DNA from: Lebetimonas natsushimae | Lineage (GTDB): Bacteria > Campylobacterota > Campylobacteria > Campylobacterales > Nautiliaceae | Reading direction: 5' to 3' | DNA: 64,000 bases | Assembly (NCBI RefSeq): GCF_002335445.1 | Contig: NZ_BDME01000001.1 | Span: 124,001 to 188,000, forward strand | Shown here: piece by piece, positions 17,090 to 53,791 of the stretch | Numbering within the stretch: the stretch's first letter is position 1 | How the letters are laid out: every line of letters starts with the position of its first letter | Position numbers and translations under genes: made by a program | Notes under the pieces: generated by a model | The model's input: only the letters and a program-made list of their open reading frames with translations | Told to the model about the DNA's origin: nothing | Database searches by the model: none

Positions 17090-18859
17090 ATGTGTGGGAT
17101 AGTAGGAGTTAAGGGAATTGAAAATCCTCAAAATTTTTTAATAGAAGGACTTAGGGAACTGGAATACAGAGGATACGACAGTGCCGGAATTGCTGTAATT
17201 GATAATGACGGGCTTAAAGTAATAAAAGCGGTTGGAAAACTTAAAAATTTAGAAGTCAAGTTAAAAAATGTAACTTTTAAAAATCCAAAACTGGGAATCG
17301 GCCATACCAGATGGGCAACCCATGGGAAACCTACAGAAATCAATGCCCACCCACACACTGGGAAATTCAGTGCGGTAGTACATAACGGGATAATAGAAAA
17401 TTATCAGAAGATAAAAAAAGAACTTGAAAAAGAAAATATTGAATTTATCTCCCAAACAGATACAGAGGTAATAGTAAAACTTTTTGAACATTTTTGTAAC
17501 GGGGACGTGTTTGAAGCATTTAAAAAAACAATTAAAAAAATAGACGGTGCTTATGCTGTGTTATTAATTACGGAAAAAGCACCTGATAAAATATTTTTTG
17601 CAAAAAAAGGTTCCCCTCTAATCGTGGCAAAAAATGGGAATAAATTTTTCTTTGCTTCATCCGATGCCCCTTTGATAGGCTATGCAGATAGTGCTCATTA
17701 TTTAGAAGATTCTGAATTTGGATATATTGACGATGATATATACTTGTTTAAAGACGGTAAAAAGATTACACCAAATTTTAAACCTCTTCCTGATAACAGG
17801 GAATCAGCCAAAAAAGGCGGATACCGTTTTTATATGGAAAAAGAGATTTATGAACAATACGATGTGCTAAAAGAAAACACTCTTGGCAGAAATACAAAAG
17901 AAGGAATTAAATTTGATGAGGTTGATAAAAATTTTTTTGAAGGAATAAACAATATTATAATTTCAGCATGCGGGACCAGTTATCACGCAGGACTGGTTGG
18001 AAAATATCTGATAGAAAGAAGCGCAAAAATAAGGGTAAATGTAGAAGTTGCAAGCGAGCTTAGATACAGAAATCCTCTTTTAACAAAAGACACCCTTTTT
18101 ATTGTAATTTCCCAAAGCGGGGAAACCGCAGATACGCTTGAGACTCTTAAAATGGCAAAAAAAGCCGGGCTTAAAACATTGGCTTTATGTAATGTGGACA
18201 ATTCTTCAATTGTCCGTGAAGCTGACAAAACTATACTTCTTAGGGCTGGTATAGAAAAAGGAGTTGCATCCACAAAAGCCTTTGCCACTCAGGTAATGAC
18301 TCTTTGGATGCTTAGTAATTATTTGGCAGATAAAAACGAATATGAAATTATAAATAAAGCGATTGAATCCACAAAAGTAAATCCTAAAATTCATGAAAAA
18401 ATAAAAAGACTTTCAAAAAGATACCTTCACGGACACGGATTTTTTTATATAGGAAGAGATATATTCTATCCTCTTGCACTTGAAGGGGCACTTAAACTAA
18501 AAGAAATAAGCTATATTCATGCAGAAGGATATCCGGCAGGAGAAATGAAACACGGACCTATCGCTTTAGCGGACCCTGAGCTTTTTGTAGTGGCATTGCT
18601 TAGCAAAAATATACTTTTTGAAAAAACAAAATCAAATATAGAAGAGCTTGTGGCAAGGGATGCCACGGTTCTTACAATTTCAAGTGAATTAATTGAACTT
18701 ACAGATGACTTTATACAAATAAGTGATTCAAATCATCCGATGATAGAATTTTTTGAAATGATGGTAATAACTCAGCTTTTAGCCCTTGAAGTGGCAATCA
18801 GAAGAGGAAATGATGTGGATATGCCAAGAAATTTGGCAAAATCTGTGACAGTTGAATGA
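17090..18859 (+). CDS. glmS: Glutamine--fructose-6-phosphate aminotransferase (isomerizing)
   Basis: A 589-residue GlmS. The N-terminal glutaminase domain starts with the nucleophile in 'MCGIVGVKG', and 'GIGHTRWATHGKP' binds glutamine. Two SIS isomerase domains follow ('SACGTSYHAGLVGKYL', 'ISQSGETADT', then 'EGYPAGEMKHGPIAL'). The C-terminus ends 'MPRNLAKSVTVE' as usual. It makes glucosamine-6-phosphate, the first committed step to UDP-GlcNAc, which serves both peptidoglycan and the pgl sugars. It is the last gene before a sharp change to more AT-rich glycan genes. Confidence 0.97.
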   Translation: MCGIVGVKGIENPQNFLIEGLRELEYRGYDSAGIAVIDNDGLKVIKAVGKLKNLEVKLKNVTFKNPKLGIGHTRWATHGKPTEINAHPHTGKFSAVVHNGIIENYQKIKKELEKENIEFISQTDTEVIVKLFEHFCNGDVFEAFKKTIKKIDGAYAVLLITEKAPDKIFFAKKGSPLIVAKNGNKFFFASSDAPLIGYADSAHYLEDSEFGYIDDDIYLFKDGKKITPNFKPLPDNRESAKKGGYRFYMEKEIYEQYDVLKENTLGRNTKEGIKFDEVDKNFFEGINNIIISACGTSYHAGLVGKYLIERSAKIRVNVEVASELRYRNPLLTKDTLFIVISQSGETADTLETLKMAKKAGLKTLALCNVDNSSIVREADKTILLRAGIEKGVASTKAFATQVMTLWMLSNYLADKNEYEIINKAIESTKVNPKIHEKIKRLSKRYLHGHGFFYIGRDIFYPLALEGALKLKEISYIHAEGYPAGEMKHGPIALADPELFVVALLSKNILFEKTKSNIEELVARDATVLTISSELIELTDDFIQISDSNHPMIEFFEMMVITQLLALEVAIRRGNDVDMPRNLAKSVTVE

Positions 18860-18890: not shown

Positions 18891-18907
18891 AAAGGAGTGT
18901 AAAAATT
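18891..18907 (+). promoter_or_regulatory. Shine-Dalgarno and AUU initiation codon of the O-antigen ligase gene
   Basis: AAAGGAG ends at 18897, seven bases before ATT 18905. The frame is open from here into the ligase gene and closed upstream by TAA at 18887. No ATG, GTG or TTG occurs at a suitable distance. Confidence 0.6.
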
Positions 18908-20206
18908 AAATTAAATTTTAAATATATTTTATTTTCATTTGTATTGTTATCATCTATTTTTCAATTTTATTTTATTAGAATAGGATATTCATATATATCT
19001 TTAACTACAATTAGTATAATAGTACTATTACCTTTATTTATTAAAAATATGAAACTATTATTATGGAAACCTTTATTTTTTTTATTATTAATTATTATTT
19101 TTCAAATAATTAGTTTTTTATGGTCAACAGATTTAAAATTAGGTTTACATAATATATTAATTTTTTTAATATTTTTAATTATTATGACCTCAACGTATGA
19201 AATTGCTAAAAGTTATCCTAAAAGAATTTTGTATGTTTTAATAATTTATTTTATTTTTTTATTAATTGAAGTGATTTTAGTAATAATTTTTCGTATATAT
19301 CCATTAATTGAATTAGATTTTCTACATTCAAATATAGCAAAAATATTTATTAATCCTAATACTATACATGGTTTATTTAATGGTATAAGGAATAATGTAT
19401 TTGATCCAAATAAAGCAGGAGGTTTTTTCGTAAATGCAAATGTAGCTGCTGCATTTTTAGGTATAAATGCGTTAATTTGTTATTCTTTTTTTAAAATTTA
19501 TAATAATAATTTATTAAAAATAATAACTTTTTTTTTAATAATTGGAGTTTTTTTTACTGGTTCTAAAGCTGGAATAATTTTGATATTATCGTTACTTTTT
19601 TTATCTTTTATAATATTTTATTTTTTAAATAAAATATTAACTTTACAAAAAATAATTTATATTTTATTTTTTATTAATATCATTTATTTATTAATTATTT
19701 TTTGGGGATATAATTTTTTACAAAGTGATTTTGTAAAAAAAACAATGAGTACCACAGAAATTCGATTATTAATTTGGAAATATGGCATAGAACAATTTTT
19801 ACAACATCCAATAATTGGATTAGGATTTGGGGGTTGGCAAGAAAATTTTAAAATTTATGCATTGAAAATGGGTATAGGAACAGGTTTCCCACCTCATAAT
19901 ACATTACTTTATTTATGGGCACAAAGTGGAATTTTTGTAGTAATTTTTGCCTTATTGTTTATATTTTATATAATAAAATTTGGACTTATTTTAATTAAAT
20001 CTTCAATTAAAGAACTACAAGGATTAGGAATAGCTATATTAGGTGCGTTTGGATGGACATTTATTCATGGAATGGGTACTAATTTTGGATTAATAGGTGA
20101 AATTCATATGGAGATTATTTTAGCTACATTGCTTGGTTATTCTTTAGCAAGATTAAAATTCTATCAAAAAAAGGTTATTTATGAAAATGAATATAATAAT
20201 TTATAG
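18905..20206 (+). CDS. O-antigen ligase/polymerase (Wzy/WaaL family), probable AUU start
   Basis: About 433 residues with around ten membrane helices and a large periplasmic loop. The family-typical 'PIIGLGFGGWQENF' then 'PPHNTLLYLWAQSG' (conserved His-Asn) mark the Wzy_C/O-antigen ligase domain. It would polymerise glycan repeats or join them to lipid A core or another carrier. A normal start appears only at TTG 18944, which lacks a ribosome site. A strong AAGGAG at 18892-18897 points instead to ATT at 18905, which gives an N-terminus KLNFKYILFSFVLLSS that completes the first helix. The region is more AT-rich than its upstream neighbours, which fits an exchanged cassette. Confidence 0.75.
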   Translation: MKLNFKYILFSFVLLSSIFQFYFIRIGYSYISLTTISIIVLLPLFIKNMKLLLWKPLFFLLLIIIFQIISFLWSTDLKLGLHNILIFLIFLIIMTSTYEIAKSYPKRILYVLIIYFIFLLIEVILVIIFRIYPLIELDFLHSNIAKIFINPNTIHGLFNGIRNNVFDPNKAGGFFVNANVAAAFLGINALICYSFFKIYNNNLLKIITFFLIIGVFFTGSKAGIILILSLLFLSFIIFYFLNKILTLQKIIYILFFINIIYLLIIFWGYNFLQSDFVKKTMSTTEIRLLIWKYGIEQFLQHPIIGLGFGGWQENFKIYALKMGIGTGFPPHNTLLYLWAQSGIFVVIFALLFIFYIIKFGLILIKSSIKELQGLGIAILGAFGWTFIHGMGTNFGLIGEIHMEIILATLLGYSLARLKFYQKKVIYENEYNNL

Positions 20207-21302
20207 AAACCAGCTTTTTAAGATATCAGAATCATTTATTACTAGTCAAGCTGAAATGTTAAAAAAATTTAATCCTATATATGTAGGAAGAAAATCTTTT
20301 GGCCCAGCACCTAAAAATTCAGTTGTTGTTACAATGGATGATTTATCTATAATAAAAAATATTAACTATGTTTTATTTAGAAATATTTCTTTTTTTGAGA
20401 AAAATTTATTAAGTTTTAATCCAAAATTAATACATGCACATTTTGGAGTAGATGGTATTTATGCTATAAAATTAGCACAAGAAATGAAAATTCCATTAAT
20501 TACTACTTTTCATGGATTTGATGTTTCTATAAGTAATAAAAATTTATTATTTTCAGGAAAGCCTGCATGGATAAATTATTTATTATATAGAAAAAAATTG
20601 GCAAAAAATGGAGATTTATTTATATGTGTTTCAGATTTTATTAGGAAAAAAATAATTGAACTTGGGTTTCCAGAAAATAAAACTATTACACATTATATAG
20701 GTATAGATACAAATTTGAAAAAAAATAAAATTAAAAAGTTTCCTTATAAAGTTATTCTTCATGTAGCAAGATTAACAGAAAAAAAAGGAACCAAATATCT
20801 TATAGATGCATTTAAAATTATTAATAAAGAGGATAAAAATACAAAATTAATAATAATTGGTAGTGGTATTTTAGAAAAAAAATTAAAGAAGCAAGTAAAA
20901 GAGTTACAATTGGAAAATTATGTAAAATTTTTGGGTGCTATGTCTCATAATGAGGTTATGGAGTGGATGCAAAAAGCTGATATTTTTTGTTTACCAAGTA
21001 TTACTGCTAAAACGGGAGATGCTGAAGGATTAGGTATGGTATTTCTTGAAGCAGGTATTTATGAAGTGCCAGTAGTAGCTACTCTTCATGGAGGAATTCC
21101 TGAGGTTATATTAAATAATAAAACAGGTTTCTTGGTAGAAGAAAGAAATATAAAACAGTTAGCAGATAAGTTATTAATCTTATTAAAAAATGAAAATTTA
21201 AGAAAAAGTATGGGAAAAGAAGCCAGAAATTTTATAAAAGAAAAATTTGACATTCAAAAACAAACTAAAAAATTAGAGGAAATTTATAAAGGGTTAATAT
21301 GA
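20181..21302 (+). CDS. Glycosyltransferase family 4
   Basis: A 373-residue GT-B enzyme. The N-terminal half has 'KLIHAHFGVDGIYAIKLAQ' and 'LITTFHGFDVS', the acceptor side of GT4 colanic/exopolysaccharide transferases. The C-terminal half has 'VILHVARLTEKKGTKYLIDA' and the E-x7-E donor loop 'EGLGMVFLEAGIYEVPVVAT'. It overlaps the O-antigen ligase gene by 26 bases and the next gene by four. WcaL/AmsK-type galactosyl- or glucosyltransferases look most similar, but the donor is not known. Confidence 0.87.
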   Translation: MKMNIIIYRNQLFKISESFITSQAEMLKKFNPIYVGRKSFGPAPKNSVVVTMDDLSIIKNINYVLFRNISFFEKNLLSFNPKLIHAHFGVDGIYAIKLAQEMKIPLITTFHGFDVSISNKNLLFSGKPAWINYLLYRKKLAKNGDLFICVSDFIRKKIIELGFPENKTITHYIGIDTNLKKNKIKKFPYKVILHVARLTEKKGTKYLIDAFKIINKEDKNTKLIIIGSGILEKKLKKQVKELQLENYVKFLGAMSHNEVMEWMQKADIFCLPSITAKTGDAEGLGMVFLEAGIYEVPVVATLHGGIPEVILNNKTGFLVEERNIKQLADKLLILLKNENLRKSMGKEARNFIKEKFDIQKQTKKLEEIYKGLI

Positions 21303-22255
21303 AAAATATTTCAGTTATTATACCGGCTTATAATGAAGGAAGAAATTTATCTAAAAGCGTTTTATCTTTTATTAATCAAACTGTTAAACCATTAGAAATT
21401 ATTATTGTTGATGATTGTTCGAGTGATAATACTTTAAATATTGCTTATGAATTGAAATATAAATATTCTAAATTCAATATTAAAATATTAAAACATAATA
21501 AAAATAAAGGAGCTGGAGGAGCAAGAAATACTGGGCTTTTAGAAGCAAGAGGTGATATTATTGTTTTTGCAGAAGCTGATGGTGAATATTCAAAATTATA
21601 TTTACAAAAAGTTTTAAATATTTTAGAGAGAAATAGGAATTGTTTTACTGGAGGAGGATTAAGAGTTTGTTCAAATAGAAATAAAACTATATGGATTGAG
21701 TATTGGAATTCTTTATTTGAAGCAAGATGGATTCTTAGTAAAAAATTAAATATACATAAGGGGGGATGGGTTTTTTATAAACAAGATATAAAAAATATTG
21801 GAGGATATAATGAATCATTAAAAGAAGGTGAAGATATAGAATTAACTAATCGTTTATTGAAAAAGGGATTTAAAAGTATTTGGATAGGTAATGTTTTTTT
21901 TAAACACCGAGAACCTGAAACTATAATAGAAGTTTTTAAAAGATTTTTTAAAGCCGGGAAAAATACTTATAAATTTAGAAAACTGCAAAAAAGATATTAT
22001 AAGGATGTTATATTATCCATTTTATTTGTAGTTTTTTCCCCTATATTGATGATTTTTCCTCATTTTTTTATTATTTTTAAGTCTGAAACAAGGATTGCTC
22101 AAATTAGGTTAATAAAAAAATATAAAAAGAAACAAAATAATATTTTAAGTGTTATTTTATTTCCTTATCAATTTTATTTTCAAAAAATGTCAACTGCATT
22201 AGGAATTATTGTTAGTTTTTTTTATGAAGTAACTAAAAAAAATAAGGGTTTATAA
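21299..22255 (+). CDS. Glycosyltransferase family 2
   Basis: A 318-residue GT2 enzyme: 'ISVIIPAYNEGRNLSKSVLS', 'IIIVDDCSSDNTLN', 'NKGAGGARNTGLLEARG' and 'FAEADGEYS', where Glu-Ala-Asp replaces the usual Asp-x-Asp. A hydrophobic segment near residues 240-260 suggests a membrane-attached C-terminus. It starts on ATGA shared with the previous stop. It probably adds one sugar during assembly of the surface glycan; donor and acceptor are not evident. Confidence 0.85.
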   Translation: MKNISVIIPAYNEGRNLSKSVLSFINQTVKPLEIIIVDDCSSDNTLNIAYELKYKYSKFNIKILKHNKNKGAGGARNTGLLEARGDIIVFAEADGEYSKLYLQKVLNILERNRNCFTGGGLRVCSNRNKTIWIEYWNSLFEARWILSKKLNIHKGGWVFYKQDIKNIGGYNESLKEGEDIELTNRLLKKGFKSIWIGNVFFKHREPETIIEVFKRFFKAGKNTYKFRKLQKRYYKDVILSILFVVFSPILMIFPHFFIIFKSETRIAQIRLIKKYKKKQNNILSVILFPYQFYFQKMSTALGIIVSFFYEVTKKNKGL

Positions 22256-22256
22256 A

Positions 22257-23438
22257 ATGAAAGAAAAATATAAATTGCTTATCGTAGCTAGGGATATTGT
22301 AAATACAGGAGGAGGTCATGTAATAGAACAGCTTTGTAAAAATTTAATTAATTATTGCGATGAAATTGTGGTTTTTACTGATTATAAAAATTCTATATTA
22401 AACGAATTAGAAATTAAACAAATAACTTCTTTTTATGGAGAAAAATTATATAACTATAATCCAAAAAGAAAAGTTTTTAAAATAATAAGACACTTTTTAA
22501 GAGTTAGTTTTTTTGCTTTTTCTACTTTAAAATTAAAAAATAAGAAATTTTCAGAATATATTATATTAGATAATAATAATGAAGGTTTTATTTGTGATAT
22601 TTCATTAACTCATGATGTTTTTACATGTACTTTATTAAAAGATGTTAAGAAAAATAAAAGAAAAATAAAAAGGATATTTAATCCTGTATTACTATTTAAA
22701 ATAGTTAAAGAGTGGATTGTTTTAAATAAAAATAGTACTAAATTTATAATAGCTATTTCTAATGAAACTTTAAAAGAAATTAATTTTGTTTGTAAAAAAA
22801 AGAAAAAACCTAAAAAAGTTATAGGACATGGGGTGGATTTAGAAAAATTTTATCCAAATGAAAAGATAAAAAAGAATTTAAGAAAAAAATATAATATTCC
22901 TAATGAAAAATTTGTTTTATTACTTTCTGGGCATGATTATGAAAGAAAAGGACTAGAGTATGTTATTAAAGCGCTTAAATTGCTACCGGATGATATAATT
23001 TTAGTTGTAACAGGAAAAGGAGATATAGAACCTTATTTAGCACTTGCAAAAAAACTTTCAGTTTATGATAGAGTTTATTATTTAGGACTTTTAAATGATG
23101 TAAGGGAAGGATATTGGTTGAGTGATGTTTTTGTTTTACCTACTTCGTATGAAGGATGGGGATTAGTTGCTACTGAAGCAATGGGATGTGGTTTACCTGT
23201 TTTAATATCAAAAGTAGGAGGTGTAAAAGATTATTTGATAGATGGATATAATGGTTTAGCTATTGAACGTGATGAGTATAATATAGCAAAAAAAGTTTTA
23301 TATATTAAAAATAATCAATCTATTTATAATAACATAAGGAAAAATGGAATAGAAACTGCTAAGAAATATAATTGGGAAAATGTTGCTAAGAAGTATTTAG
23401 AAGTTATAAAATTTGTAGGTAAACAAAAAAATGTTTAA
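22257..23438 (+). CDS. Glycosyltransferase family 4
   Basis: A 393-residue GT-B enzyme. 'KFVLLLSGHDYERKGLEYVI' begins the donor domain and 'DVFVLPTSYEGWGLVATEAM' with 'GCGLPVLISKVGG' is the E-x7-E nucleotide-sugar site. The N-terminal half contains 'ARDIVNTGGGHVIEQLCKNL', the glycine-rich loop of the family. It begins one base after the preceding stop and overlaps the MurJ-like gene by eight bases. Base composition is like the neighbouring AT-rich glycan genes. Confidence 0.87.
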   Translation: MKEKYKLLIVARDIVNTGGGHVIEQLCKNLINYCDEIVVFTDYKNSILNELEIKQITSFYGEKLYNYNPKRKVFKIIRHFLRVSFFAFSTLKLKNKKFSEYIILDNNNEGFICDISLTHDVFTCTLLKDVKKNKRKIKRIFNPVLLFKIVKEWIVLNKNSTKFIIAISNETLKEINFVCKKKKKPKKVIGHGVDLEKFYPNEKIKKNLRKKYNIPNEKFVLLLSGHDYERKGLEYVIKALKLLPDDIILVVTGKGDIEPYLALAKKLSVYDRVYYLGLLNDVREGYWLSDVFVLPTSYEGWGLVATEAMGCGLPVLISKVGGVKDYLIDGYNGLAIERDEYNIAKKVLYIKNNQSIYNNIRKNGIETAKKYNWENVAKKYLEVIKFVGKQKNV

Positions 23439-24891
23439 ATCTTTTTTTAAAATATTTACAGGTAATATCATAGGGAAAATAATAGGATTTTTAAGAGAAA
23501 TTATAATAGCTTATTTATATGGTACTAGTGTACCTGTTGGAGCATTTCGTATCGCACAAACTGCTGTATTAATTCCTGTAAATTTTTTTACATCCGATAC
23601 TTTAAATGCAGGATTTATTCCTCTTTATAATCACTATAAAAAAATTAGTATTTATAAAGCCCAATCGTTTTTTTGGATTTTAAATATAGCTCTTACGTTA
23701 ATATCTTTCATAATTGTTATTATTTTATTTAAATCAGCTTTTTGGTGGGTAAATTTGATTGCTCCTGGTTTTTCTGTGGCAGAGCACAATTTGGCAGTAC
23801 TTTTTGTTAAAATTATGTCTTTAAGTATTCCTTTCTATGTATTAAGTTTGCTTTATTCATATCTTGCATTAGCTCATAATTATAGTTTTCTTGTTTCTAT
23901 TAGGCCTTCTATACAAAGTTTTGGAATGATTTGTGGAGCAATTTTGGCATATTATTTTAACAACATTGCATTATTTGCATGGGGTTTTACTGGGGCTTAT
24001 ATATTTTTTTTCTTTTTAGCTATAAAAGAATTATTAAAAAAAAATTTATTTTATTTTTCTTTTCAAAATATAGGAGAAATATTAAAGGATTTTTTTAATA
24101 TTATTAAACCTTTATTGTTATTACCTATTATGTTACAAGGAAATATATTTATAGAGCGAATGGTGTCTTCTTATATGGGTATTGATGTTGTGGCTTCAGT
24201 GGAATATGCTAAATTTATTACAGAATCTGGAATATCTCTTTTGGCAGCTCCTTTAGGTCTTATAGGATTAGCTACATTAAGTAATTTTAATATGAAAAAA
24301 ACAAGAGATAAGTTATTGCAAATAATTTCTCTTATTTTAATAATTACGATTCCGATATCTATGTTTTTAATTTCAAATTCTGAATTAATTGTTTCTTTTA
24401 TATTTAAAAGAGGAGCTTTTGATAAAGAATCTGTATTAATTACTAAAAATATATTAATTGGTTTATCTATAGGCTTTTGGGCACAAATAGTATCTTATAT
24501 TATGATAAAAGCTTTAAATGCTCAACATGAAAATAAAAAAGTAGTTATTTTTATGGCTATTGCTTTAAGCTCGAATACTTTATTTGATATTTTTTTTTAT
24601 AAAATATTAGGACCTATTACTATAGGTATAGGATCAAGTATTTACGGATTTATTCTTTTTATTTTAACGATTAATTTTTTTAATATTTCAAGATATTTAT
24701 TAAATATAATATTTTGGTTATTAATTGGAAGTGTGATTTATTTTTTTATTAATAATTTTTTATATTTTAAAAATGAATTTATTGATATTTTTATTACATT
24801 TTTTTTATTTTTATTATATTGGGCAATTTATATTTTTATAATTCCAATTTTAAGAAATAATATTATATCAATTTTAAAAGGAAAAAAATGA
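23431..24891 (+). CDS. MurJ/MviN-like lipid-linked glycan flippase
   Basis: A 486-residue membrane protein with about 14 helices. The N-terminus 'NIIGKIIGFLREIIIAYLYG' and the later 'ERMVSSYMG' and 'FKRGAFDKES' motifs are those of the MurJ/MviN family within the MOP superfamily. MurJ flips lipid II, but the position among glycosyltransferases suggests this copy carries the locus glycan instead. The housekeeping murJ would then lie elsewhere in the genome. It is one of two flippase candidates in the locus. Confidence 0.82.
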   Translation: MFKSFFKIFTGNIIGKIIGFLREIIIAYLYGTSVPVGAFRIAQTAVLIPVNFFTSDTLNAGFIPLYNHYKKISIYKAQSFFWILNIALTLISFIIVIILFKSAFWWVNLIAPGFSVAEHNLAVLFVKIMSLSIPFYVLSLLYSYLALAHNYSFLVSIRPSIQSFGMICGAILAYYFNNIALFAWGFTGAYIFFFFLAIKELLKKNLFYFSFQNIGEILKDFFNIIKPLLLLPIMLQGNIFIERMVSSYMGIDVVASVEYAKFITESGISLLAAPLGLIGLATLSNFNMKKTRDKLLQIISLILIITIPISMFLISNSELIVSFIFKRGAFDKESVLITKNILIGLSIGFWAQIVSYIMIKALNAQHENKKVVIFMAIALSSNTLFDIFFYKILGPITIGIGSSIYGFILFILTINFFNISRYLLNIIFWLLIGSVIYFFINNFLYFKNEFIDIFITFFLFLLYWAIYIFIIPILRNNIISILKGKK

Positions 24892-26051
24892 AAAAGGATA
24901 TAGTATTACTTTCTACGGCCGAATGGGATCATCCATTTTGGACTAATAAACAACATGTAGCTGTGGAATTGGCAAAAAGAGGTCATAAAGTTTTTTATAT
25001 TGATTCTTTAGGTCTTCGTCGTCCTAGTGCGAGTAGTCAGGATTTTAAAAGAATTTTAAAAAGAATTCAAAAATCATTAAAAAAACCTAAACAAGTTAGA
25101 GAAAATTTATGGGTATGGTCTCCTATTTTATTGCCTTTTCAAAATAAAAAAATTGTTAGAAAGTTTAATTTTGTTTTATTAAATAACTGGTTAAATTTTT
25201 GGTTAAAAAATTTAAATTTTAAGCACGAAATTTTTTGGACATACAATCCTTTAACAAGTAAATTATTTGATGTTAAAAAATATGAACTGCTTGTATATCA
25301 TTGTGTTGATGAGATAAAAGCTCAACCCGGAATGCCTATTAAAATTTTAGAAGTAGCAGAAAAAGAATTAGTTGAATTATCTGATTATGTTTTTACTACT
25401 TCATTAAAACTTTATGACACGCGTAAAATTTTAAATGAACATACTTATTATTTTTCCAATGTGGCTGATTTTAATCATTTTTCAAAAGCAATGGAAGAAA
25501 CTACAATTGTCCCTCAAGATTTAACAGCTATTTCTTCTCCTCGAATAGGTTTTATTGGGGCTATAAGTAGTTATAAAATAGATTTTAATTTATTAGAATA
25601 TTTAGCTAAAAAATTTCCTCATTATTCTTTTATTCTTATAGGAAAGATTGGTGAAGGAGATCCATGGACAAAAATTGATTTTCTTAAAAAATATAAAAAT
25701 ATTTATTTTTTAGGTCCTAAATCATATTCTGAATTACCTAATTATTTAAAAGGAATAGATGTTGCTATATTGCCTAATAATATAAATGAATATACAGAAT
25801 CTATGTTTCCAATGAAATTTTTTGAATATTTAGCGGCAGGTAAACCTATAGTTAGTGTTAATTTACCGTCTTTAAAAGAATATAAAAATATATGTTTTTT
25901 ATCAAATACATATGAAGAATTTGCAAATAATATTAATAAAGCATTAAAAAATCCTAATTTTAATTTAGAAAAACGGATATCTTTAGCTAAAGAATTTACT
26001 TATGAAAAAAGAACTGAAAAAATGATGAAAATAATTGAAGGAAATTTATGA
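24888..26051 (+). CDS. Glycosyltransferase, GT-B fold (GT1/GT4-like)
   Basis: About 387 residues. 'KDIVLLSTAEWDHPFWTNKQ' and 'WTYNPLTSKLFDVKKYELLV' characterise a group of GT-B enzymes found in exopolysaccharide loci (TuaH-like). The C-terminal half has 'RIGFIGAISSYKIDFNLLEY' and 'MFPMKFFEYLAAGKPIVSVN', the donor-binding K-x2-E-Y-x-A-x-G-x-P region. Overlaps of four bases with both neighbours indicate a coupled operon. The sugar is not known. Confidence 0.83.
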   Translation: MKKDIVLLSTAEWDHPFWTNKQHVAVELAKRGHKVFYIDSLGLRRPSASSQDFKRILKRIQKSLKKPKQVRENLWVWSPILLPFQNKKIVRKFNFVLLNNWLNFWLKNLNFKHEIFWTYNPLTSKLFDVKKYELLVYHCVDEIKAQPGMPIKILEVAEKELVELSDYVFTTSLKLYDTRKILNEHTYYFSNVADFNHFSKAMEETTIVPQDLTAISSPRIGFIGAISSYKIDFNLLEYLAKKFPHYSFILIGKIGEGDPWTKIDFLKKYKNIYFLGPKSYSELPNYLKGIDVAILPNNINEYTESMFPMKFFEYLAAGKPIVSVNLPSLKEYKNICFLSNTYEEFANNINKALKNPNFNLEKRISLAKEFTYEKRTEKMMKIIEGNL

Positions 26052-27166
26052 AAAAAGCATTAGTTCATGATTGGTTTTCTGTATATGCCGGGGCTGAAAA
26101 GTGTGTTGAAAGTTTTACGAATATATGGAATGATTTTGATGTGTACAGTCTTATTGATTTTTTGAACGAAAAAGATAGAGAAATTATATTAAAAGGTAAA
26201 AAAGCAAATACCAGTTTTATTCAAAAGCTTCCAAAAGCAAAAGATAAATATAGAAATTATTTCCCTTTGTTTCCTTTTGCTATAGAACAGTTTGATTTAA
26301 GTGATTATGATTTAATTTTATCTTCTTCTCATGCAGTTGCAAAAGGTGTATTGACTCATTCTAATCAACTTCATATAAGTTATGTTCATACTCCTATAAG
26401 ATATGCTTGGGATTTATATCATCAATATTTAAAAGAAAGTAAATTAGATAAAGGTTTAAAAGGTATTCTTGCAAAATATTTTCTTCATAAAATTCGTATA
26501 TGGGATATGAGCACAATAAATCGTGTGGATTATTATATAGCAAATAGTCATTATATAGCACGAAGAATTAAAAAAGTGTATGGAAAAGATAGTACGGTTA
26601 TATATCCACCTGTTGATGTAGATAAATTTAAACTTAAATCTTATAAAGAAGATTTTTATTTAACCGCTTCTAGGATGGTTTCATATAAAAAAATAGATCT
26701 AATAGTAGAGGCTTTTAGCAAAACTGATAAAAAACTTGTAGTAGTAGGGACTGGTCCGGATATGGAAAAAATAAAATCTAAAGCTGCTAAAAATATTGAA
26801 ATTTTAGGATATCAGCCAGATAGTGTGCTTATTGATTTAATGCAGAAGGCAAAAGCATTTGTTTTTGCAGCAGAGGAAGATTTTGGTATTATTCCTGTAG
26901 AGGCTCAAGCATGTGGAACGCCGGTTATTTGTTTAGGAAAAGGCGGAACGAAAGAGACTGTTATTGATAATGTTACAGGGGTTCATTTTGATAATCAGTG
27001 TGTTGAAAATATTTTAAAGGCAGTTGATAAATTTGAAAAAAATATAGATAAATTTGAGCCTGAAAAAATTAGAGAAAACGCTTTAAGATTTTCAAGGGAT
27101 AGATTTGAAAAAGAGATAAAAGACTTTGTAGAAGAAAAATATAAAATATTTAAAAATCATAAATGA
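26048..27166 (+). CDS. Glycosyltransferase family 4, WbaZ-like (probable mannosyltransferase)
   Basis: A 372-residue GT4 enzyme. 'KALVHDWFSVYAGAEKCVES' at the N-terminus, 'SYVHTPIRYAWDLYHQYL' and 'SHYIARRIKKVYGKDSTVIY' are hallmarks of the WbaZ/WbdA-type mannosyltransferase group. The donor site is 'EEDFGIIPVEAQACGTPVIC'. GDP-mannose would come from ManC, encoded 10 bases downstream, which supports mannose as donor. Composition shifts back toward the locus average here. Confidence 0.85.
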   Translation: MKKALVHDWFSVYAGAEKCVESFTNIWNDFDVYSLIDFLNEKDREIILKGKKANTSFIQKLPKAKDKYRNYFPLFPFAIEQFDLSDYDLILSSSHAVAKGVLTHSNQLHISYVHTPIRYAWDLYHQYLKESKLDKGLKGILAKYFLHKIRIWDMSTINRVDYYIANSHYIARRIKKVYGKDSTVIYPPVDVDKFKLKSYKEDFYLTASRMVSYKKIDLIVEAFSKTDKKLVVVGTGPDMEKIKSKAAKNIEILGYQPDSVLIDLMQKAKAFVFAAEEDFGIIPVEAQACGTPVICLGKGGTKETVIDNVTGVHFDNQCVENILKAVDKFEKNIDKFEPEKIRENALRFSRDRFEKEIKDFVEEKYKIFKNHK

Positions 27167-27176
27167 GGTGTAAAGT

Positions 27177-28586
27177 ATGAAAGCAGTCATTTTAGCAGGG
27201 GGGAGTGGAACAAGATTATTTCCATTATCAAGAAAAAAATTTCCTAAACAGTTTTTAAATTTAGGAGATAGTGAAAGTTTGTTTCAAAAAACAGTAAAAA
27301 GAAATTTAAAAGCTTTAAAAGATATAAATGATGTAATAATAATTACAAACAATGATTATCAGTTTCATGTAAAAAATCAATTAAAAGATATTTTTAATAA
27401 TAAATTAAATTTGATTTTAGAACCTGTAGGGAGAAATACAGCACCGGCAATTGCATTGGCTATAAAATACGCATTTGAAAAATTAGGGGTGGGTGAAAAC
27501 GAAATTTTGTTTGTTTCACCGTCTGATCATTTAATTTCTCCTGATGATAAATTTGCAGAATATATTAAAGAAGCTGAAAAACTTGCTAAAAAAGGATATA
27601 TTGTTACATTTGGAGTAAATCCTACTAAACCTGAGACTGGATATGGATATATTGAAGCGGGAGATTTAGCTGAAAATGCTTATAAAGTTAAACAGTTTCA
27701 TGAAAAGCCGAATTTAAAAACAGCTCAAAAATATTTAATGGCGGGTAACTATTATTGGAACAGTGGGATGTTTGCTTTTAGTATAGAAACAATTTTAGAA
27801 GAATTTAAAAAATTTGTTCCTGAAATTTATGAAAAAATTGAAAATTCTTCATTTGAAGAGGTAATTAAAGATTTTGAAAATATGCCTGATATTTCAATAG
27901 ATTATGCCGTAATGGAAAAAACTGATAAAGCTGTTGTTTTACCTCTTAATATTATATGGTCTGATGTTGGTTCTTGGGACAGTGTTTATGATGTTTTAGA
28001 TAAAGATGAAAATCAGAATGTAAAAATAGGTAATATTATTGATATTGATACGAAAAATTCCCTTATTATGGGTGAAGACAGGCTTATTGCCACAATCGGG
28101 GTAGATAGTTTAATGGTTATAGAAACGTCTGATGCTATTGTAGTAGCTAAAAAAGGACAAGGGCAACAAATAAAAAATTTGGTATCTTTATTAAAAAATA
28201 ATTCACAGACAAAAGAGTTGACTGAATTTCATAAAACGGTTTACAGACCGTGGGGAAGTTATACAGAACTTGAAAAAGGAGAAAGATATAGAATAAAAAA
28301 AATAGTGGTAAATCCGGGAGAACAGCTTAGTTTGCAGTTGCATTATCACAGAAGTGAACATTGGATAGTTGTAAAAGGAACGGCAAAAGTTGTGTTAGGT
28401 GATGAAAAAGGAAATTTAAAAGAATTTTTTATACATGAAAATGAAAGCACATATGTACCTAAATCTACAAAACACAGACTAATTAATCCGGGTAAAATTC
28501 CACTTGAACTTATAGAAGTTCAGGTAGGAGAATATGTTGAAGAAGATGATATTATAAGATTTAACGATAAATACAAAAGAGTTTAA
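27177..28586 (+). CDS. manC: Mannose-1-phosphate guanylyltransferase / mannose-6-phosphate isomerase
   Basis: A 469-residue type II PMI/GMP enzyme. The guanylyltransferase half begins 'MKAVILAGGSGTRLFPLSRK' and the C-terminal cupin isomerase half shows 'RPWGSYTELEKGERYRIKKI' and 'QLHYHRSEHWIVVKGTAKV' with the metal-binding His and Glu residues. It makes GDP-mannose from mannose-1-phosphate and interconverts fructose-6-P and mannose-6-P. No phosphomannomutase gene is in the window. Its stop codon overlaps the stop of the convergent gene. Confidence 0.96.
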   Translation: MKAVILAGGSGTRLFPLSRKKFPKQFLNLGDSESLFQKTVKRNLKALKDINDVIIITNNDYQFHVKNQLKDIFNNKLNLILEPVGRNTAPAIALAIKYAFEKLGVGENEILFVSPSDHLISPDDKFAEYIKEAEKLAKKGYIVTFGVNPTKPETGYGYIEAGDLAENAYKVKQFHEKPNLKTAQKYLMAGNYYWNSGMFAFSIETILEEFKKFVPEIYEKIENSSFEEVIKDFENMPDISIDYAVMEKTDKAVVLPLNIIWSDVGSWDSVYDVLDKDENQNVKIGNIIDIDTKNSLIMGEDRLIATIGVDSLMVIETSDAIVVAKKGQGQQIKNLVSLLKNNSQTKELTEFHKTVYRPWGSYTELEKGERYRIKKIVVNPGEQLSLQLHYHRSEHWIVVKGTAKVVLGDEKGNLKEFFIHENESTYVPKSTKHRLINPGKIPLELIEVQVGEYVEEDDIIRFNDKYKRV

Positions 28587-28598
28587 TTTAACTCTTTT
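28575..28598. terminator. Compact bidirectional terminator over two overlapping stop codons
   Basis: AAAAGAGTT pairs with AACTCTTTT around a six-base TAATTT loop, with A- and T-runs on both sides. The loop and stem edge contain the stop codons of manC (+) and of the facing gene (-). Confidence 0.6.
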
Positions 28599-29635
28599 TC
28601 ATATTTTTTTCTTAAAATATTATAAATCCATAAATAAATAAGACTTGCTATTATAAATATTGAAATTAAGGCAAACGGATTGTATCTGAAATAAAAGACA
28701 ATAATATTTAAAATAATATGTGGGATTAATATATAAAGTGCCGCTATGGAATTTTTGATTGCATTATCTTTTATATTTGGATATTTTTGTTTTATATATT
28801 TAAACATAAAATAATGCAAATCTTCACTGTCTGATTCACTAAAAGGTATTCCGTATAATTTTTTTCTTTTTATTCTTCTTGGAAATTTTTGTAAAGTATT
28901 TATAATAGGAATTGTAAATGCTGCTAAAGGATACCATACTGTTAATTTTGGGTCATGATTTGTCATAGCAATTGATAAAAACCCTACAATAAATCCTATA
29001 AGATGGGCTCCCATATCTCCTAAAAAAATTTTTCCATATGGAAAATTAAAAATCAAAAATCCTAAAATAGCACCGTTTAAAATAAGTACTACTTTTAAAT
29101 ATTCATACATCCCTGTAATATAAAAATGATAACCAAAAAATGATAATGTAATAAATATTACTCCCGTAGCATAACCGTTTAGTCCATCAATAAAATTTAT
29201 AGCACTTGCAAATCCTACAATTCCTATTATTGCAATAATATAACCTATTGCGGCTTCAAAAGGATTGTTTTTATTTAAGATTATAAATCCTCCGTTAAAT
29301 ACACCTTCTTTTGTCATATAAACTAAAACTAATGCTGAAAGGAATATAAAGGCTATTTTTTTTGAATAAGGTAGATCTAAATGAAATCTGTCTTCTAAAA
29401 AACCAAAGGTAAATATTGCTGTTCCCGCTATGAGTATATTTGTTAGTAGAGGAGAAAAAAATACTGAAGTAATGGTTATACTTGCAATAATTCCTAAACC
29501 TCCGAGTCTTGACACTTTATGGGTATGCATAGCATGACTTTTTTCATCAGCAGTCTTGTCTAATCCATAATTTTTTTTGTAAATTAGATAAACAAAAATT
29601 GCAGATAATATAAATGAGATTAAAAATTCTAACAT
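28583..29635 (-). CDS. Polyprenyl-phosphate HexNAc-1-phosphate transferase (WecA/MraY family)
   Basis: A 350-residue membrane enzyme with about ten helices. 'DKTADEKSHAMHTHKVSRLG' early, 'NFIDGLNGYATG' (DGLNG motif) and 'FLGDMGAHLIGFIVGFLS' (GD-x-GA) are the conserved cytoplasmic loops of the WecA/WbpL/MraY family that hold the metal and undecaprenyl phosphate. It would start a second lipid-linked glycan, separate from the PglC-initiated one. The C-terminal loop 'KFPRRIKRKKLYGIPFSESD' is WbpL-like rather than MraY-like. It is convergent with manC and divergent from the efflux operon. Confidence 0.88.
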   Translation of the reverse strand: MLEFLISFILSAIFVYLIYKKNYGLDKTADEKSHAMHTHKVSRLGGLGIIASITITSVFFSPLLTNILIAGTAIFTFGFLEDRFHLDLPYSKKIAFIFLSALVLVYMTKEGVFNGGFIILNKNNPFEAAIGYIIAIIGIVGFASAINFIDGLNGYATGVIFITLSFFGYHFYITGMYEYLKVVLILNGAILGFLIFNFPYGKIFLGDMGAHLIGFIVGFLSIAMTNHDPKLTVWYPLAAFTIPIINTLQKFPRRIKRKKLYGIPFSESDSEDLHYFMFKYIKQKYPNIKDNAIKNSIAALYILIPHIILNIIVFYFRYNPFALISIFIIASLIYLWIYNILRKKYEKELN

Positions 29636-41361: not shown

Positions 41362-41670
41362 ATGGAAAAAATCAGAATTAAACTGCAGGCATATGATCAC
41401 AGAGTGCTTGATAAAGCAGTAGGAATAATTACTGAAGCTATCAAAAGAACTGGAGCTGAAGTAAAGGGACCAATTCCACTACCTACAAAAATAAGAAGAT
41501 ATACAGTATTACGTTCACCTCACATCAATAAAGATTCTAGAGAGCAATTTGAAATTAGAATTCATAGACGTCTAATTGATGTTGTGAATGCATCGCCTGA
41601 AACTGTAGACCAACTAATGAAATTAGAGTTGGCACCAGAGGTAGATGTAGAAGTTAGGGCATTAAGTTAA
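41362..41670 (+). CDS. rpsJ: 30S ribosomal protein S10
   Basis: First gene of the ribosomal cluster, 102 residues. '[20 protein letters not shown]' and '[20 protein letters not shown]' are universally conserved in S10; the second is the extended loop that reaches into the 30S head. S10 also works as the antitermination factor NusE. Start ATG 41362 follows AAGGAAGAG. Confidence 0.98.
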
Positions 41671-41680
41671 GGAGAATTGA

Positions 41681-42256
41681 ATGGAATTTATAGTTGAAAA
41701 AATAGGAATGAGTAGGACAGTTGGAATCCCAAGCATTCCAGTTACATTATTAAAAATTGTTCCAGCTAAGGTTTGTGAAATAAAAGAAGATAAAGCATTA
41801 GTTGCGTATGCTAATGGTAAAAAAATCAATAAGCCAATTGAAGGTATGCAAAAAAAATACGGTCTAAGCAAAGAATTCAACAGATTTGTAGAACTTAAAG
41901 TTGCAAATGCAGAACCTGGAGATTTAAGTTTAGAACCGTTAAAAGAAGCTAAAAAAGTAAAACTTACTTTCAAAAGTAAAGGTAGAGGTTTTGCCGGTGT
42001 AATGAAAAGACACGGATTTGCCGGAGGTCCGGGAGGACACGGTTCAAGATTTCACAGAGCACCGGGATCAATTGGTAACTGTGAATGGCCAGGTAGAGTT
42101 CAACCGGGACAAAAAATGCCAGGACATTACGGAAATAAAAATGTTACAGTTAACGCAGAAGTGGTTGAATTTGATCCAGATATGGGTGTTCTTGTAATCA
42201 AAGGAAGCGTTCCAGGAGCTAACGGAAGTTTAGGAAAAGTAAGGATTGTGAAATGA
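41681..42256 (+). CDS. rplC: 50S ribosomal protein L3
   Basis: 191 residues. The central loop '[20 protein letters not shown]' that reaches towards the peptidyl transferase centre is intact, followed by '[20 protein letters not shown]'. L3 is an early assembly protein of the large subunit. It is 10 bases after rpsJ with AAGGAG before the ATG, and overlaps rplD by four bases. Confidence 0.98.
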
Positions 42257-42837
42257 GTGAAATTACAAAAATAACAAATTTACCGGAAGATTTTCAAAAT
42301 ATCAATCCGCATAATCTTTACCTATATGTAAAAGCTTATCTTGCTAATCAAAGAGCAGGAACAGCTCATACAAAAACAAGAGGTGAAGTTAGCGGTGGTG
42401 GTAAAAAACCATTCAGACAAAAAGGTCTAGGAAGAGCTAGACAGGGAAGTATCAGAGCACCTCAATTTAGGGGTGGTGGTGTTGCACACGGGCCAAGAAA
42501 CGAAAGAGACTGGTCACAAAAACTTAATAAAAAACAAAAAAGAGTTGCATTAAAATATGCTTTAAATGAAAAAGCAAACCAAGAAAAACTTTATGTTGTA
42601 GATACAATCAAAATTGAATCTGGAAAAACAAAAGATGCTGTAAAATGGTTAAATAATCTAAATGAAAGAGATTACTTAATAGTAGTTGATGAAATGGATG
42701 AAAAAACATTTTTAGCATTCAGAAACATTCCAAACGTATACATTATTACACCAGAAGAATTAAATGCATATTACGCAAGCGTTTTCAAATCAATTATATT
42801 TGATAAAGCGGCTTACGAAAAAGTTATAAAGGGCTAA
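42253..42837 (+). CDS. rplD: 50S ribosomal protein L4
   Basis: 194 residues. The conserved tunnel loop '[20 protein letters not shown]' followed by '[20 protein letters not shown]' lines the exit tunnel. In enterobacteria L4 represses the S10 operon; the short leader here gives no direct sign of the same mechanism. The start overlaps the rplC stop (ATGA). Confidence 0.98.
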
Positions 42838-42839
42838 AG

Positions 42840-43121
42840 ATGGCTGATATTACAGATATTAAATCAATAGTTTATACAGAAAAAGCACTAAACTTACAAG
42901 AAGAAGGTGTGCTTGTAGTTCAAACTACGCCAAAAATCACTAAAAACCAGTTAAAACAAATTTTTAAAGAATATTTTGGTGTTACACCACTTAAAGTGAA
43001 TTCATTTAGACAAAAAGGTAAAGTTAAAAGATTTAGAGGAATAGAGGGTAAAAGAAGCGATTTCAAAAAATTCTATGTGAAATTACCTGAAGATGCAAAA
43101 CTTGAAAGCCTAAGTGTATAA
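42840..43121 (+). CDS. rplW: 50S ribosomal protein L23
   Basis: 93 residues, with '[20 protein letters not shown]' and '[20 protein letters not shown]'. L23 sits at the tunnel exit and is the docking site for trigger factor and SRP. The ATG is two bases after the rplD stop, with AAAG upstream. Length is normal. Confidence 0.97.
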
Positions 43122-43132
43122 AGGAATAAAAG

Positions 43133-43957
43133 ATGGGAATTAAAACATATAAACCGTATACACCGTCAAGAAGATTTATGAGTTCGCTAGATAACAGCGA
43201 TATCACTTCTAAACCAACGGTAAAAAAATTATTAATTAAACTTCCGCAAAAAGCGGGAAGAAACAATCAGGGAAGAATTACATCAAGACACAGAGAAGCC
43301 GGGGCTAAAAAGCTTTACAGAATTATTGATTTCAAAAGAAACAAATTCGGAGTGCCTGGAAAAGTTACAACAATTGAATACGATCCATACAGAAACTGCA
43401 GAATCTGTTTAGTAACTTATGTTGATGGTGATAAAAGATATATCATTCAACCTGAAGGTCTAAAAGTTGGTGATACTGTAATGGCAGCGGAAGCAGGGCT
43501 TGATATTTTACCTGGGAATGCTATGAAACTTAAAAATATTCCTGTTGGTACTGTAGTTCACAATGTTGAGCTTAAACCTGGAAAAGGTGGTCAAATAGCT
43601 AGAGCTGCAGGAAACAGCTGCCAAATTATGGGTAGAGAAGATAAATATGTAATTCTTAGACTTCCAAGTGGAGAAATGAGAAAAGTTTTAGGCGAATGTA
43701 TGGCAACTATCGGTGTTGTGGGTAACGCCGATTACCAAAACATCACTATCGGAAAAGCAGGTAGAAACAGACACAGAGGTATCAGACCTCAAACAAGAGG
43801 TATTGCTATGAACCCGGTTGATCACCCACACGGTGGTGGTGAAGGTAGAAGTAAAGGTAACCATCCAGTTACACCTTGGGGAATGCCAACTAAAGGTTAC
43901 AAAACTAGAAAGAAAAAACCATCTGATAAATATATCATTTCAAGAAGAAAGAAATAA
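43133..43957 (+). CDS. rplB: 50S ribosomal protein L2
   Basis: 274 residues. '[20 protein letters not shown]' and '[20 protein letters not shown]' are the conserved blocks; the His in the second lies near the peptidyl transferase centre. The C-terminus is basic as usual. Eleven bases separate it from rplW. Confidence 0.99.
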
Positions 43958-43966
43958 GGATAGCGC

Positions 43967-44248
43967 ATGGCTAGAAGTTTAAAAAAAGGTCCTTTTGTAG
44001 ACGACCATTTAATGAAAAAAGTTTTAAAAGCTAAAGAAGAAAAAAACCCAAAACCAATTAAAACTTGGTCAAGAAGAAGTACAATCGTTCCTGAAATGAT
44101 TGGGCTTACAATTAATGTGCATAACGGAAGAGATTTTGTACCGGTTTATATCACTGAAAGACACATCGGTTTCAAACTTGGTGAATTTGCACCGACTAGA
44201 ACTTTTAGAGGCCATAAAGGTTCTGTTCAAAAGAAAATAGGTAAGTAA
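43967..44248 (+). CDS. rpsS: 30S ribosomal protein S19
   Basis: 93 residues beginning '[20 protein letters not shown]' and containing '[20 protein letters not shown]' and '[20 protein letters not shown]', all diagnostic. S19 binds the head of the 30S with S13. The start follows AAGGATAG nine bases after rplB. Confidence 0.98.
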
Positions 44249-44257
44249 GGATAGGTG

Positions 44258-44578
44258 ATGAGTAAAGCAGTATTAAAATTTATAAGACTTTCACCAACTA
44301 AAGCAAGACTTATTGCAAGAGAAATTCAGGGAATGAATGCTGAAGAAGCTCTTGCAAAGCTTGAATTTATGCCAAATAAAGCAGCAAGAGTAATTGCAAA
44401 AGTTGTTGCAAGTGCGGTTGCAAACGGTGGATTTGATGCAAACGAAGTTGTAGTTAAATCTTGCAGAGTTGACAGAGGTCCTTATCTTAAAAGATTCAGA
44501 CCAAGAGCGAGAGGTATGGCAAGCAGAATTCAAAAACCAACAGCTCACATTTACGTAGAAGTTGAAAAGGAAAGCTAA
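44258..44578 (+). CDS. rplV: 50S ribosomal protein L22
   Basis: About 106 residues. '[20 protein letters not shown]' and the hairpin '[20 protein letters not shown]' that lines the exit tunnel are clear. The ATG at 44258 is preferred to the GTG at 44255 because of its spacing from AAGGAT, though the two differ by one residue. It overlaps rpsC by one base. Confidence 0.97.
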
Positions 44579-45300
44579 TGGGTCAAAAGACAAATCCAAT
44601 CGGACTAAGACTAGGAATTAACAGAAACTGGAGAAGTAGATGGTTTATTAACTACAATACTATGCCAGAAAATGTATTAGGTGATTATGAACTTAGAAAA
44701 TTCTTAAAGAAAAAACTTTATTATGCTGGAATTAGTGATATTATTATTGAAAGAACAGCTAAAAAAATAAGAATTACAATTTTTGCCGCTAAACCTGGAA
44801 TTATTATCGGTAAAGGTGGAAGCGAAATAGAAAATCTTAAAAAAGAACTTCAAAAGAAAATTGGAAACAAAGAATTAATTCTTAATATTAAAGAAGAAAG
44901 AAAACCTCATTTAAGCGCTCAGCTTGCGGCTGAAAACATTGCTACTCAGATAGAAAGAAGGGTGGCATTCAGAAGAGCTATGAAAAAAGCTATTCAAAAT
45001 GCTTTAAAAGCCGGAGCTAAAGGAATTAAAGTTCAGGTAGCCGGAAGATTAAACGGTGCCGAAATGGCGAGAACTGAATGGTATCTTGAAGGAAGGGTTC
45101 CGCTTCACACACTAAGAGCTAAAATTGATTACGGTTTTGCCGAAGCTTTAACAACATACGGAATTATCGGAGTTAAAGTTTGGATATTCAAAGGTGAGGT
45201 TTTACAAAGAAGAAATAATGAAGTAGCTTCTACTACTGAGGAAAAAAGACCTCAAAGAAGAAGAAAAGGACGCAGAAATGTTAATGCCAAAAAGAACTAA
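44578..45300 (+). CDS. rpsC: 30S ribosomal protein S3
   Basis: 240 residues. '[20 protein letters not shown]' at the start, the KH domain '[20 protein letters not shown]' and '[20 protein letters not shown]' near the mRNA entry. A Lys/Arg-rich tail ends the protein. The rplP start lies 23 bases inside its 3' end. Confidence 0.98.
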
Positions 45301-45703
45301 ATACAGAAAACAACAAAAAGGTAGAAACAGAGGTAAGGCGTACAGAGGAAACAGCCTTGCATTTGGAACATACGGACTTAAAGCAATTGAACTTGGAAGA
45401 ATTAACTCTAGACAAATTGAAGCCGGTAGGGTTGCACTAACGAGAACTATGAAAAGAACTGGTAAAGTTTGGATTAGAGTATTTCCTGATAAACCTTTAA
45501 CTTCAAAACCGGTTGGTGTGAGAATGGGTAAAGGTAAAGGTAGCGTTGAAGAGTGGGTTATGAATATTAAACCTGGAAGAATTATTTTTGAACTTACCGG
45601 TGTTGATAATGATACAGCAATTCGTGCATTAACTCTTGCAGCTGCAAAATTACCTTTTAAAACAAAAATTGTAACAATGGAGAGTGAAAATGAGCTATAC
45701 TAA
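45278..45703 (+). CDS. rplP: 50S ribosomal protein L16
   Basis: 141 residues starting '[20 protein letters not shown]', the form common in Campylobacterota, with '[20 protein letters not shown]'-type central block and '[20 protein letters not shown]'. L16 helps position A-site tRNA. It overlaps rpsC upstream and rpmC downstream, so translation is coupled. Confidence 0.97.
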
Positions 45704-45896
45704 ATTAAATGTAGCGGATTTGGTTCAAAAAAGTGAAGCTGAATTACAAGAGCTTCTTAAAAATAAAAAAATGGAACTTTTTGAGACAAGAATGAAACTA
45801 AAAACTATGCAGCTACAAGACACATCTTTAGTTTCTAAAATCAGAAAAGATATCGCAAGAATTAAAACAGCGATGAGACAAAAAAGGGGTAACTAA
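45690..45896 (+). CDS. rpmC: 50S ribosomal protein L29
   Basis: About 68 residues, a helical hairpin with '[20 protein letters not shown]' and '[19 protein letters not shown]'. The ATG at 45690 is chosen over GTG 45684 because GGAG ends seven bases before it. It overlaps rplP by 14 bases and shares one base with rpsQ. Confidence 0.95.
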
Positions 45897-46141: not shown

Positions 46142-46143
46142 GA

Positions 46144-46763: not shown

Positions 46764-46766
46764 GAG

Positions 46767-47499: not shown

Positions 47500-47511
47500 A
47501 AGGATGCCGAG

Positions 47512-47907: not shown

Positions 47908-47918
47908 GGAGAAAATTA

Positions 47919-48458: not shown

Positions 48459-48467
48459 GGGTGAGAG

Positions 48468-52954: not shown

Positions 52955-52965
52955 ATTATCTCCTT
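52952..52965 (-). promoter_or_regulatory. Shine-Dalgarno and AUU initiation codon of the PhoH-like gene
   Basis: On the minus strand AAGGAG overlaps the nadC stop TAA and ends five bases before ATT. No ATG, GTG or TTG lies in frame for the next 270 bases although codons there read as protein. Confidence 0.6.
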
Positions 52966-53791
52966 ATTGTATTTTCATTGAAAAATCTTTAAATACTGCG
53001 TGATGAATGATAGCCCCGCTGCTGATTGCATCTACACCTGTATCAATGTATTTTTTTATATTTTCCAAAGTCACGTTTCCACTGGCCTCCAATAAAACTT
53101 TTGGAAAATTGTCATTTCTAAATTCAGCAACTTTTTTTATTTCATCAAATTCCATGTTATCGCACATTACTATATCAGCCCCGGCTTCCATAGCCTCTTT
53201 TGCCATTTCAAAATTTTCGCACTCAACTTCTATTTTTGTGGTAAAAGGAATAAGTTTTCTTGCTTTATTAATAGCTTCTTTTATTGATGTAAAAAGCGCT
53301 AAATGGGTATCTTTTAGCATCAAACAGTCATCAAGGCCGAGCCTGTGGTTTGTAATTCCTCCGCAAAATGCCGCATATTTTTCAAAAATCCTTAATTTTG
53401 GTCTTGTTTTTCGTGTATCAAGAATTTTTATTTTATTATCTGCAATTTTAGAAAATTTATATGCATTGCTTGCAATTCCACTTGCATGTTGCAAAATATT
53501 CAGCATTGTTCTTTCAATTGAAAGGATGTCTTTGGCATTACCGTAAACTTCAAAAATAATATCCCCGTTTTTATATTCGCTTCCGTCTTTATAAAAAAAA
53601 TCAAATTTCACATCAGCAATTTCGCTGAAATATTTAATATATTCAAGCCCTGCAACTATACCCTCACTTTTTGATTTTACAAAAGCTGTTGTTTCCCCTT
53701 TTATTAAACTTCTTGCCAAATCCCCTCTGCCTATATCTTCATTTAAGGCTTCTTTTAAGAAATCAACTATTTGATGCTTCATTAAATTCAT
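52964..53791 (-). CDS. nadC: Nicotinate-nucleotide pyrophosphorylase (quinolinate phosphoribosyltransferase)
   Basis: 275 residues. 'EALNEDIGRGDLARSLIKGE' at the start, 'QHASGIASNAYKFSKI' and 'KILDTRKTRPKLRIFEKYAA' (PRPP and quinolinate Arg/Lys residues), then 'HRLGLDDCLMLKDTHLA'. It converts quinolinate and PRPP to nicotinate mononucleotide. It overlaps nadA by four bases; the two catalyse successive steps in NAD synthesis. Confidence 0.96.
   Translation of the reverse strand: MNLMKHQIVDFLKEALNEDIGRGDLARSLIKGETTAFVKSKSEGIVAGLEYIKYFSEIADVKFDFFYKDGSEYKNGDIIFEVYGNAKDILSIERTMLNILQHASGIASNAYKFSKIADNKIKILDTRKTRPKLRIFEKYAAFCGGITNHRLGLDDCLMLKDTHLALFTSIKEAINKARKLIPFTTKIEVECENFEMAKEAMEAGADIVMCDNMEFDEIKKVAEFRNDNFPKVLLEASGNVTLENIKKYIDTGVDAISSGAIIHHAVFKDFSMKIQ

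Follow-up and report, generated by a model that had tools for sequence, protein, structure and literature searches.

In Escherichia coli, infC, the gene for initiation factor 3 (IF3), starts with AUU after a ribosome site, and two AUU genes are reported for that species (PMC9410913). Another E. coli gene, pcnB, is likewise limited by its AUU start (according to citations of Binns and Masters 2002), its protein being unrelated to the one discussed here. In vitro, AUU is reported to be disfavoured by IF3 when read by a CAU anticodon (PMC10158994). In Staphylococcus aureus, a strong Shine-Dalgarno sequence (SD) precedes the start codons of cvfC1 (AUU), ccpN and citZ (AUA), those of cvfC1 and ccpN are conserved among relatives, and AUU or AUA starts give about 10% of the AUG yield in poor medium (PMC13009471). 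Mutants of the Listeria rsbW gene rank ATG > ATA > ATT, translation being lowered by ATT (PMC13068326), and a survey of 36 groups gives AUG-to-AUU switches as 1 in 61,358 (PMC5622118).

Here we describe a wzy/waaL-like gene of the vent bacterium Lebetimonas natsushimae (wzy below) in which, as in E. coli infC and the S. aureus genes, a ribosome site is followed by such a codon, and in which AUU may limit expression as it does in pcnB. A PhoH-like ATPase gene in the same stretch of DNA shares with cvfC1 and ccpN the conservation of its start among relatives.

The start region of wzy

The gene lies in a 64-kb window (the whole stretch of DNA that was analysed), whose features are collected in Table 1. 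A mechanical list of open reading frames puts its start at TTG 18944. The original prediction preferred the ATT 39 nt upstream, arguing that AAGGAG sits seven bases before it, that the frame is open, that the added residues complete the first membrane helix, and that the TTG lacks a ribosome site and would cut into that helix; coordinates, the SD rule and hydropathy bear out each of these points. The ATT shares its frame with the TTG and with the stop codon at 20204-20206. Upstream, this frame has no stop as far as 18890, and from there to TTG 18944 it contains no ATG, GTG or other TTG. The rule used finds no SD for TTG 18944. The anti-SD sequence behind this rule is the generally known one, assumed because a search with Rfam matched no 16S tail in the L. 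natsushimae genome.

Table 1. Features of the wzy locus and genes with candidate non-standard starts (positions are those of the window unless prefixed by C1, a contig position)
Feature	Position	Strand	Remarks
glmS, upstream core gene	17090..18859	+	stop TGA 18857-18859; full-length orthologues 81-85% identical in family genomes
AAGGAG ribosome site	18892..18897	+	SD of 6 nt, spacing 7
SD-to-ATT spacer	18898..18904	+	7 nt
ATT, proposed wzy start codon	18905..18907	+	SD, spacing, open frame, chance test
13 codons added by the ATT start	18905..18943	+	without them, first hydrophobic segment incomplete
TTG, first standard in-frame codon	18944..18946	+	no ribosome site
wzy/waaL-like gene, 433 aa	18905..20206	+	PF04932 (Wzy_C), E 2.6e-16, 60.2 bits against a cut-off of 31.7
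Next gene, group 1 glycosyltransferase	20181..21302	+	ATG with AAGG site; 26-nt overlap with wzy
PhoH-like ATPase gene, 285 aa	52097..52954	-	second AUU gene of the window (ATT 52952-52954); PF02562, E 2.8e-28
TAAGGAG ribosome site of the PhoH-like gene	52960..52966	-	
wzy, ATT	C1:142905	+	
PhoH-like, ATT	C1:176954	-	
LptE-like lipoprotein, ATT	C1:292592	-	
truA, ATT	C1:594621	-	
rsmA, ATA	C1:47513	+	
TPR-like membrane protein, ATA	C1:237283	-	
ribD-like, ATA	C1:356004	+	
Prepilin-like, CTG	C1:326950	+	

Such an arrangement is rarely produced by chance. An SD of at least 6 nt with an in-frame ATT, ATA, ATC or CTG appeared in 0.37% of 20,000 dinucleotide shuffles of the 84-nt wzy leader, AAGGAG at any position in 0.04% of 20,000 shuffles, and an internal ATT with an SD of at least 6 nt occurs at 49 of 219,075 codons of called genes (0.4% per 18-codon window). 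Among 696 SD-supported ATG, GTG or TTG starts, the aligned spacing is 4-6 in 523 and 7 in 60; the wzy spacer is usual, not modal. With the ATT start, the first 19-residue hydropathy window above 1.6 covers residues 6-24, while with the TTG start this segment is gone and the first such window (residues 11-29 of the shorter protein) belongs to the next segment. The 13 codons gained have a weakly positive coding score (2.3). The leader folds no more strongly than its shuffles (z 1.22) and matched no Rfam family.

The gene had been called an O-antigen ligase. Its product is indeed a PF04932 member, but ligase identity is not established, because this family spans ligases and polymerases, and a Wzy polymerase is possible. 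No NCBIfam model matched the product, and an AlphaFold model from the single sequence (mean pLDDT 53.5) was left out of the evidence.

On the same strand, wzy is the first gene 3' of glmS, with 45 nt from the glmS stop codon to the ATT; in relatives, genes other than wzy come after glmS. Positions 19001-29000 of the window form an A+T-rich island of envelope-sugar genes in which G+C is 19-29% (19% at 19001-20000) after about 33% before it; the genes immediately upstream have 32-35%. This drop suggests acquired, strain-variable DNA. The glmS of G001, the other genome of Lebetimonas, is split over several frames with stops (L067, L074; G001:C1:780445-782147) and other loci of that genome contain ambiguous bases, which are assembly errors or decay.

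No orthologue of wzy was found in 41 relatives, 397 phylum genomes or genome contigs, other than wzy itself and a 25% match in G026; G001 lacks it. As no close homologue was found, the start is without comparative support, and other non-standard starts were therefore sought in the same genome. Among 30 Wzy_C loci examined from the order, only wzy is without a credible standard start. The other 29 all have a standard codon within the first 60 codons, 25 of them with an SD by rule, although two of these (L044, L046) are too deep to inform. This lone lack would also fit a recent accidental mutation or error.

Probable non-standard starts elsewhere in the genome and the family

The survey covered 804 kb, the window and a further 740 kb, or about half of the L. 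natsushimae genome. With a simple dicodon-based gene caller, 847 ORFs were found, and in 696 of them a ribosome site accompanies ATG (572), GTG (49) or TTG (75). Candidates came by two routes, from ORFs with an orphan SD and from ORFs with conserved protein upstream of every standard codon. Eight of the 847 need an AUU, AUA or CUG start (Table 1), and the case for ATT 18905 is thereby strengthened: at least seven other genes of the same genome need such a codon, in some cases conserved across genera. AUU starts had been taken as rare and known mainly from infC, which holds for E. coli, but they seem not unusual in Nautiliaceae. A vsr-like ATA (C1:269985) was dropped from the count because an ATG follows after 15 nt. 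Most orthology-only flags, among the matches listed, were left out as well, since they reflect brief resemblances of leaders in closely related genomes.

The N-termini gained fit the proteins concerned. Read from its ATA, RsmA has KAKKKFGQNFL at its N-terminus, and residue 2 of the product aligns with position 1 of the ksgA model TIGR00755; the lipoprotein gains a lipobox signal peptide from its ATT and the prepilin-like protein a prepilin leader from its CTG. The names LptE-like, prepilin-like and ribD-like are ones that we presume from familiar motifs. Pfam gave no match for the LptE-like and prepilin-like products, and the TPR_2 match of the TPR-like membrane protein is below the cut-off.

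Conservation is clearest for the PhoH-like gene, for which 22 loci were returned and the 19 with an N-terminus were used (two fragments and one distant paralogue were dropped). These Nautiliaceae loci start with ATT (15), ATA (2), ATG (1) or TTG (1), and in the 17 loci with AUU or AUA no standard codon precedes the conserved motif. In the genomes of the neighbouring group f13, the start is TTG (G032) or ATG (G420). In the window, the ribosome site of this gene overlaps the stop codon of the upstream gene. Positions 41362-52032 of the window hold a close succession of about 22 short ORFs on one strand, most of them with a clear ribosome site; by itself, this layout resembles a prophage.

For rsmA, 30 loci were taken of the 50 places found. 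Of 20 family loci, 19 have SD-AUA; the rule identifies it in 18, and in the other (G009) it chose an upstream TTG over an identical ATA. G004 has TTG, and both f13 loci have ATA. That AUA serves as the start is indicated by the SD, the lack of alternatives, and a TTG at the homologous codon in G031. Outside f1 and f13, a standard codon is found in 7/8 loci, and G040, from another family, has ATT without a standard codon, so that other families may share the habit. The rsmA AUA (L081:7505-7520) sits in TGnTATAAT, an extended -10-like box kept in every family and f13 ATA locus. Start codon and promoter-like box may therefore share bases, and conservation of the AUA may be partly promoter-driven.

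The remaining genes are more variable. For truA, 30 loci were taken of 38 places and classified as 17 family loci, G032 and 12 others (the family alignment has 18 rows including G004). The start is ATT in 4/17 family loci and in G032, the remaining family loci having ATG, and a standard codon is present in all 12 loci outside f1 and f13; four truA loci labelled near-cognate by rule have an ATG and were not counted. The lipoprotein (22 loci taken of 23, 21 classified) starts with CTG in five loci, ATT in one and TTG or GTG in the others; the unclassified G001 locus has, by eye, ATC, its frame being broken further on. Nine of 30 prepilin-like loci could be used, the others being distant paralogues or fragments, and these have CTG (2), ATA (1), ATT (1), TTG (3), GTG (1) or ATG (1). 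The TPR-like and ribD-like genes have ATA in both L. natsushimae and G001. G004, although a family member, has standard starts in all four genes examined (rsmA, truA, lipoprotein, PhoH-like). Homologous start positions switch among AUG, UUG, GUG, CUG, AUU and AUA.

Alternative readings and the possible role of IF3

We put the probability that AUU 18905 is the start codon of wzy at roughly 0.82. Ribosomes would bind AAGGAG and start at the AUU with initiator tRNA (fMet), making a 433-residue membrane protein with its first helix intact, the strong ribosome site rescuing the weak start codon. Because AUU is a weak start, translation of wzy would probably reach only a small part of what AUG allows; such a low yield is plausible, and could benefit the cell if few copies of the membrane polymerase or ligase are needed. 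The gene would then be one case of a Nautiliaceae habit of starting at AUU, AUA, CUG and perhaps AUC where a good ribosome site precedes the codon.

If the ATT were due to a sequencing or assembly error, or to a mutation of a standard codon in this single isolate, that would agree with the standard codons of the 29 other Wzy_C loci and with a wzy sequence known from one genome only. Base errors cannot, however, explain the seven other such genes in the sample, several of which share their codon with independent genomes; moreover, the first 464 kb sampled contain no ambiguous base (N) and the wzy frame is otherwise intact. As homologous starts elsewhere switch codons and recur across genomes, a lone base error at wzy is unlikely, and we regard error or mutation together as improbable. 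Least probable of all is that AAGGAG is a remnant and that a standard codon inside the frame, either TTG 18944 or an ATG further on (19049, for example), starts the protein. TTG does serve 75 of the 696 SD-supported starts of this genome, but this one has no SD, its use would remove most of the first hydrophobic segment, and a perfect SD would be left without function.

Two further explanations are unlikely to a similar degree. The gene could be decaying, an acquired gene whose start codon was lost and which is hardly translated any more, as its A+T-rich surroundings and its being unique to this genome among those searched might suggest; yet its 433 codons are open, the Wzy_C domain is intact, the SD and its spacing are kept, and other Nautiliaceae genes keep AUU or AUA starts across species. 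Alternatively, ribosomes could reinitiate at the AUU after terminating at the glmS stop (18859), in which case the start codon would matter little. The shared strand and the 45 nt between the two would allow such coupling, although this gap is long for it and the SD is strong by itself.

A wider and distinctly tentative proposal is that start-codon fidelity is relaxed in Nautiliaceae, affecting about 1% of genes (among them rsmA, truA, the ribD-like gene and the envelope lipoprotein), with an altered IF3 as a possible cause, the codon drifting among AUG, GUG, UUG, CUG, AUU, AUA and AUC and that of the PhoH-like gene and rsmA being selected as a fixed damper. In IF3 (L021 and other IF3 loci), one residue is deleted from a loop of the N-terminal domain in every sampled family member but G004, and the EGR motif of the C-terminal part has Asn in the whole family, G004 included, where other Campylobacterota have Arg. 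G004 is thus without the deletion and with standard starts in the four genes, but, on the sequences compared, the deletion and the non-standard starts would be correlated in a single lineage, which does not make one the cause of the other. A literature search on these IF3 residues found nothing relevant. An initiator-like tRNA (L104:15852-15928) looks normal, with its first base unpaired and GGG/CCC in the anticodon stem as usual. Regulation of wzy through IF3 would be speculation.

Comparison with known systems

E. coli infC resembles wzy in having AUU after a ribosome site. As a positive AUU control in this family, infC had to be rejected, ATG being its start in 13/13 Nautiliaceae loci and TTG in 8/8 loci of other families (L003-L023), with AUU in none. 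An IF3 loop of the infC type is therefore not evident here. Eight of 847 ORFs is far above published rates, but these counts were made differently and the one non-family genome sampled in bulk, G023, is a poor control because it is G+C-rich (GC 0.549). The truA and rsmA homologues of other families, nearly all with standard codons, serve as a partial control. Our literature searches, with term look-ups in PMC2628731 and PMC5401914, found no report of such starts in Nautiliaceae.

With a gene finder that admits only ATG, GTG and TTG, these genes would be truncated or overlooked: rsmA would be called without the FGQNFL motif and the lipoprotein without a signal peptide. Should AUU and AUA starts prove both frequent and conserved in this lineage, it would be a natural system in which to study how IF3 polices initiation and how weak starts are maintained.

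The Listeria rsbW ATA and ATT codons are selected mutations (PMC13068326), not conserved starts as in Nautiliaceae. The S. aureus starts were mapped by experiment whereas those described here are known from sequence, and that study names four such sites, infC included, against about eight in half of the L. natsushimae genome (PMC13009471). Taken alone, wzy would be a further case of the AUU initiation already known from these species; the recurrence of such starts across the family is the more interesting result.
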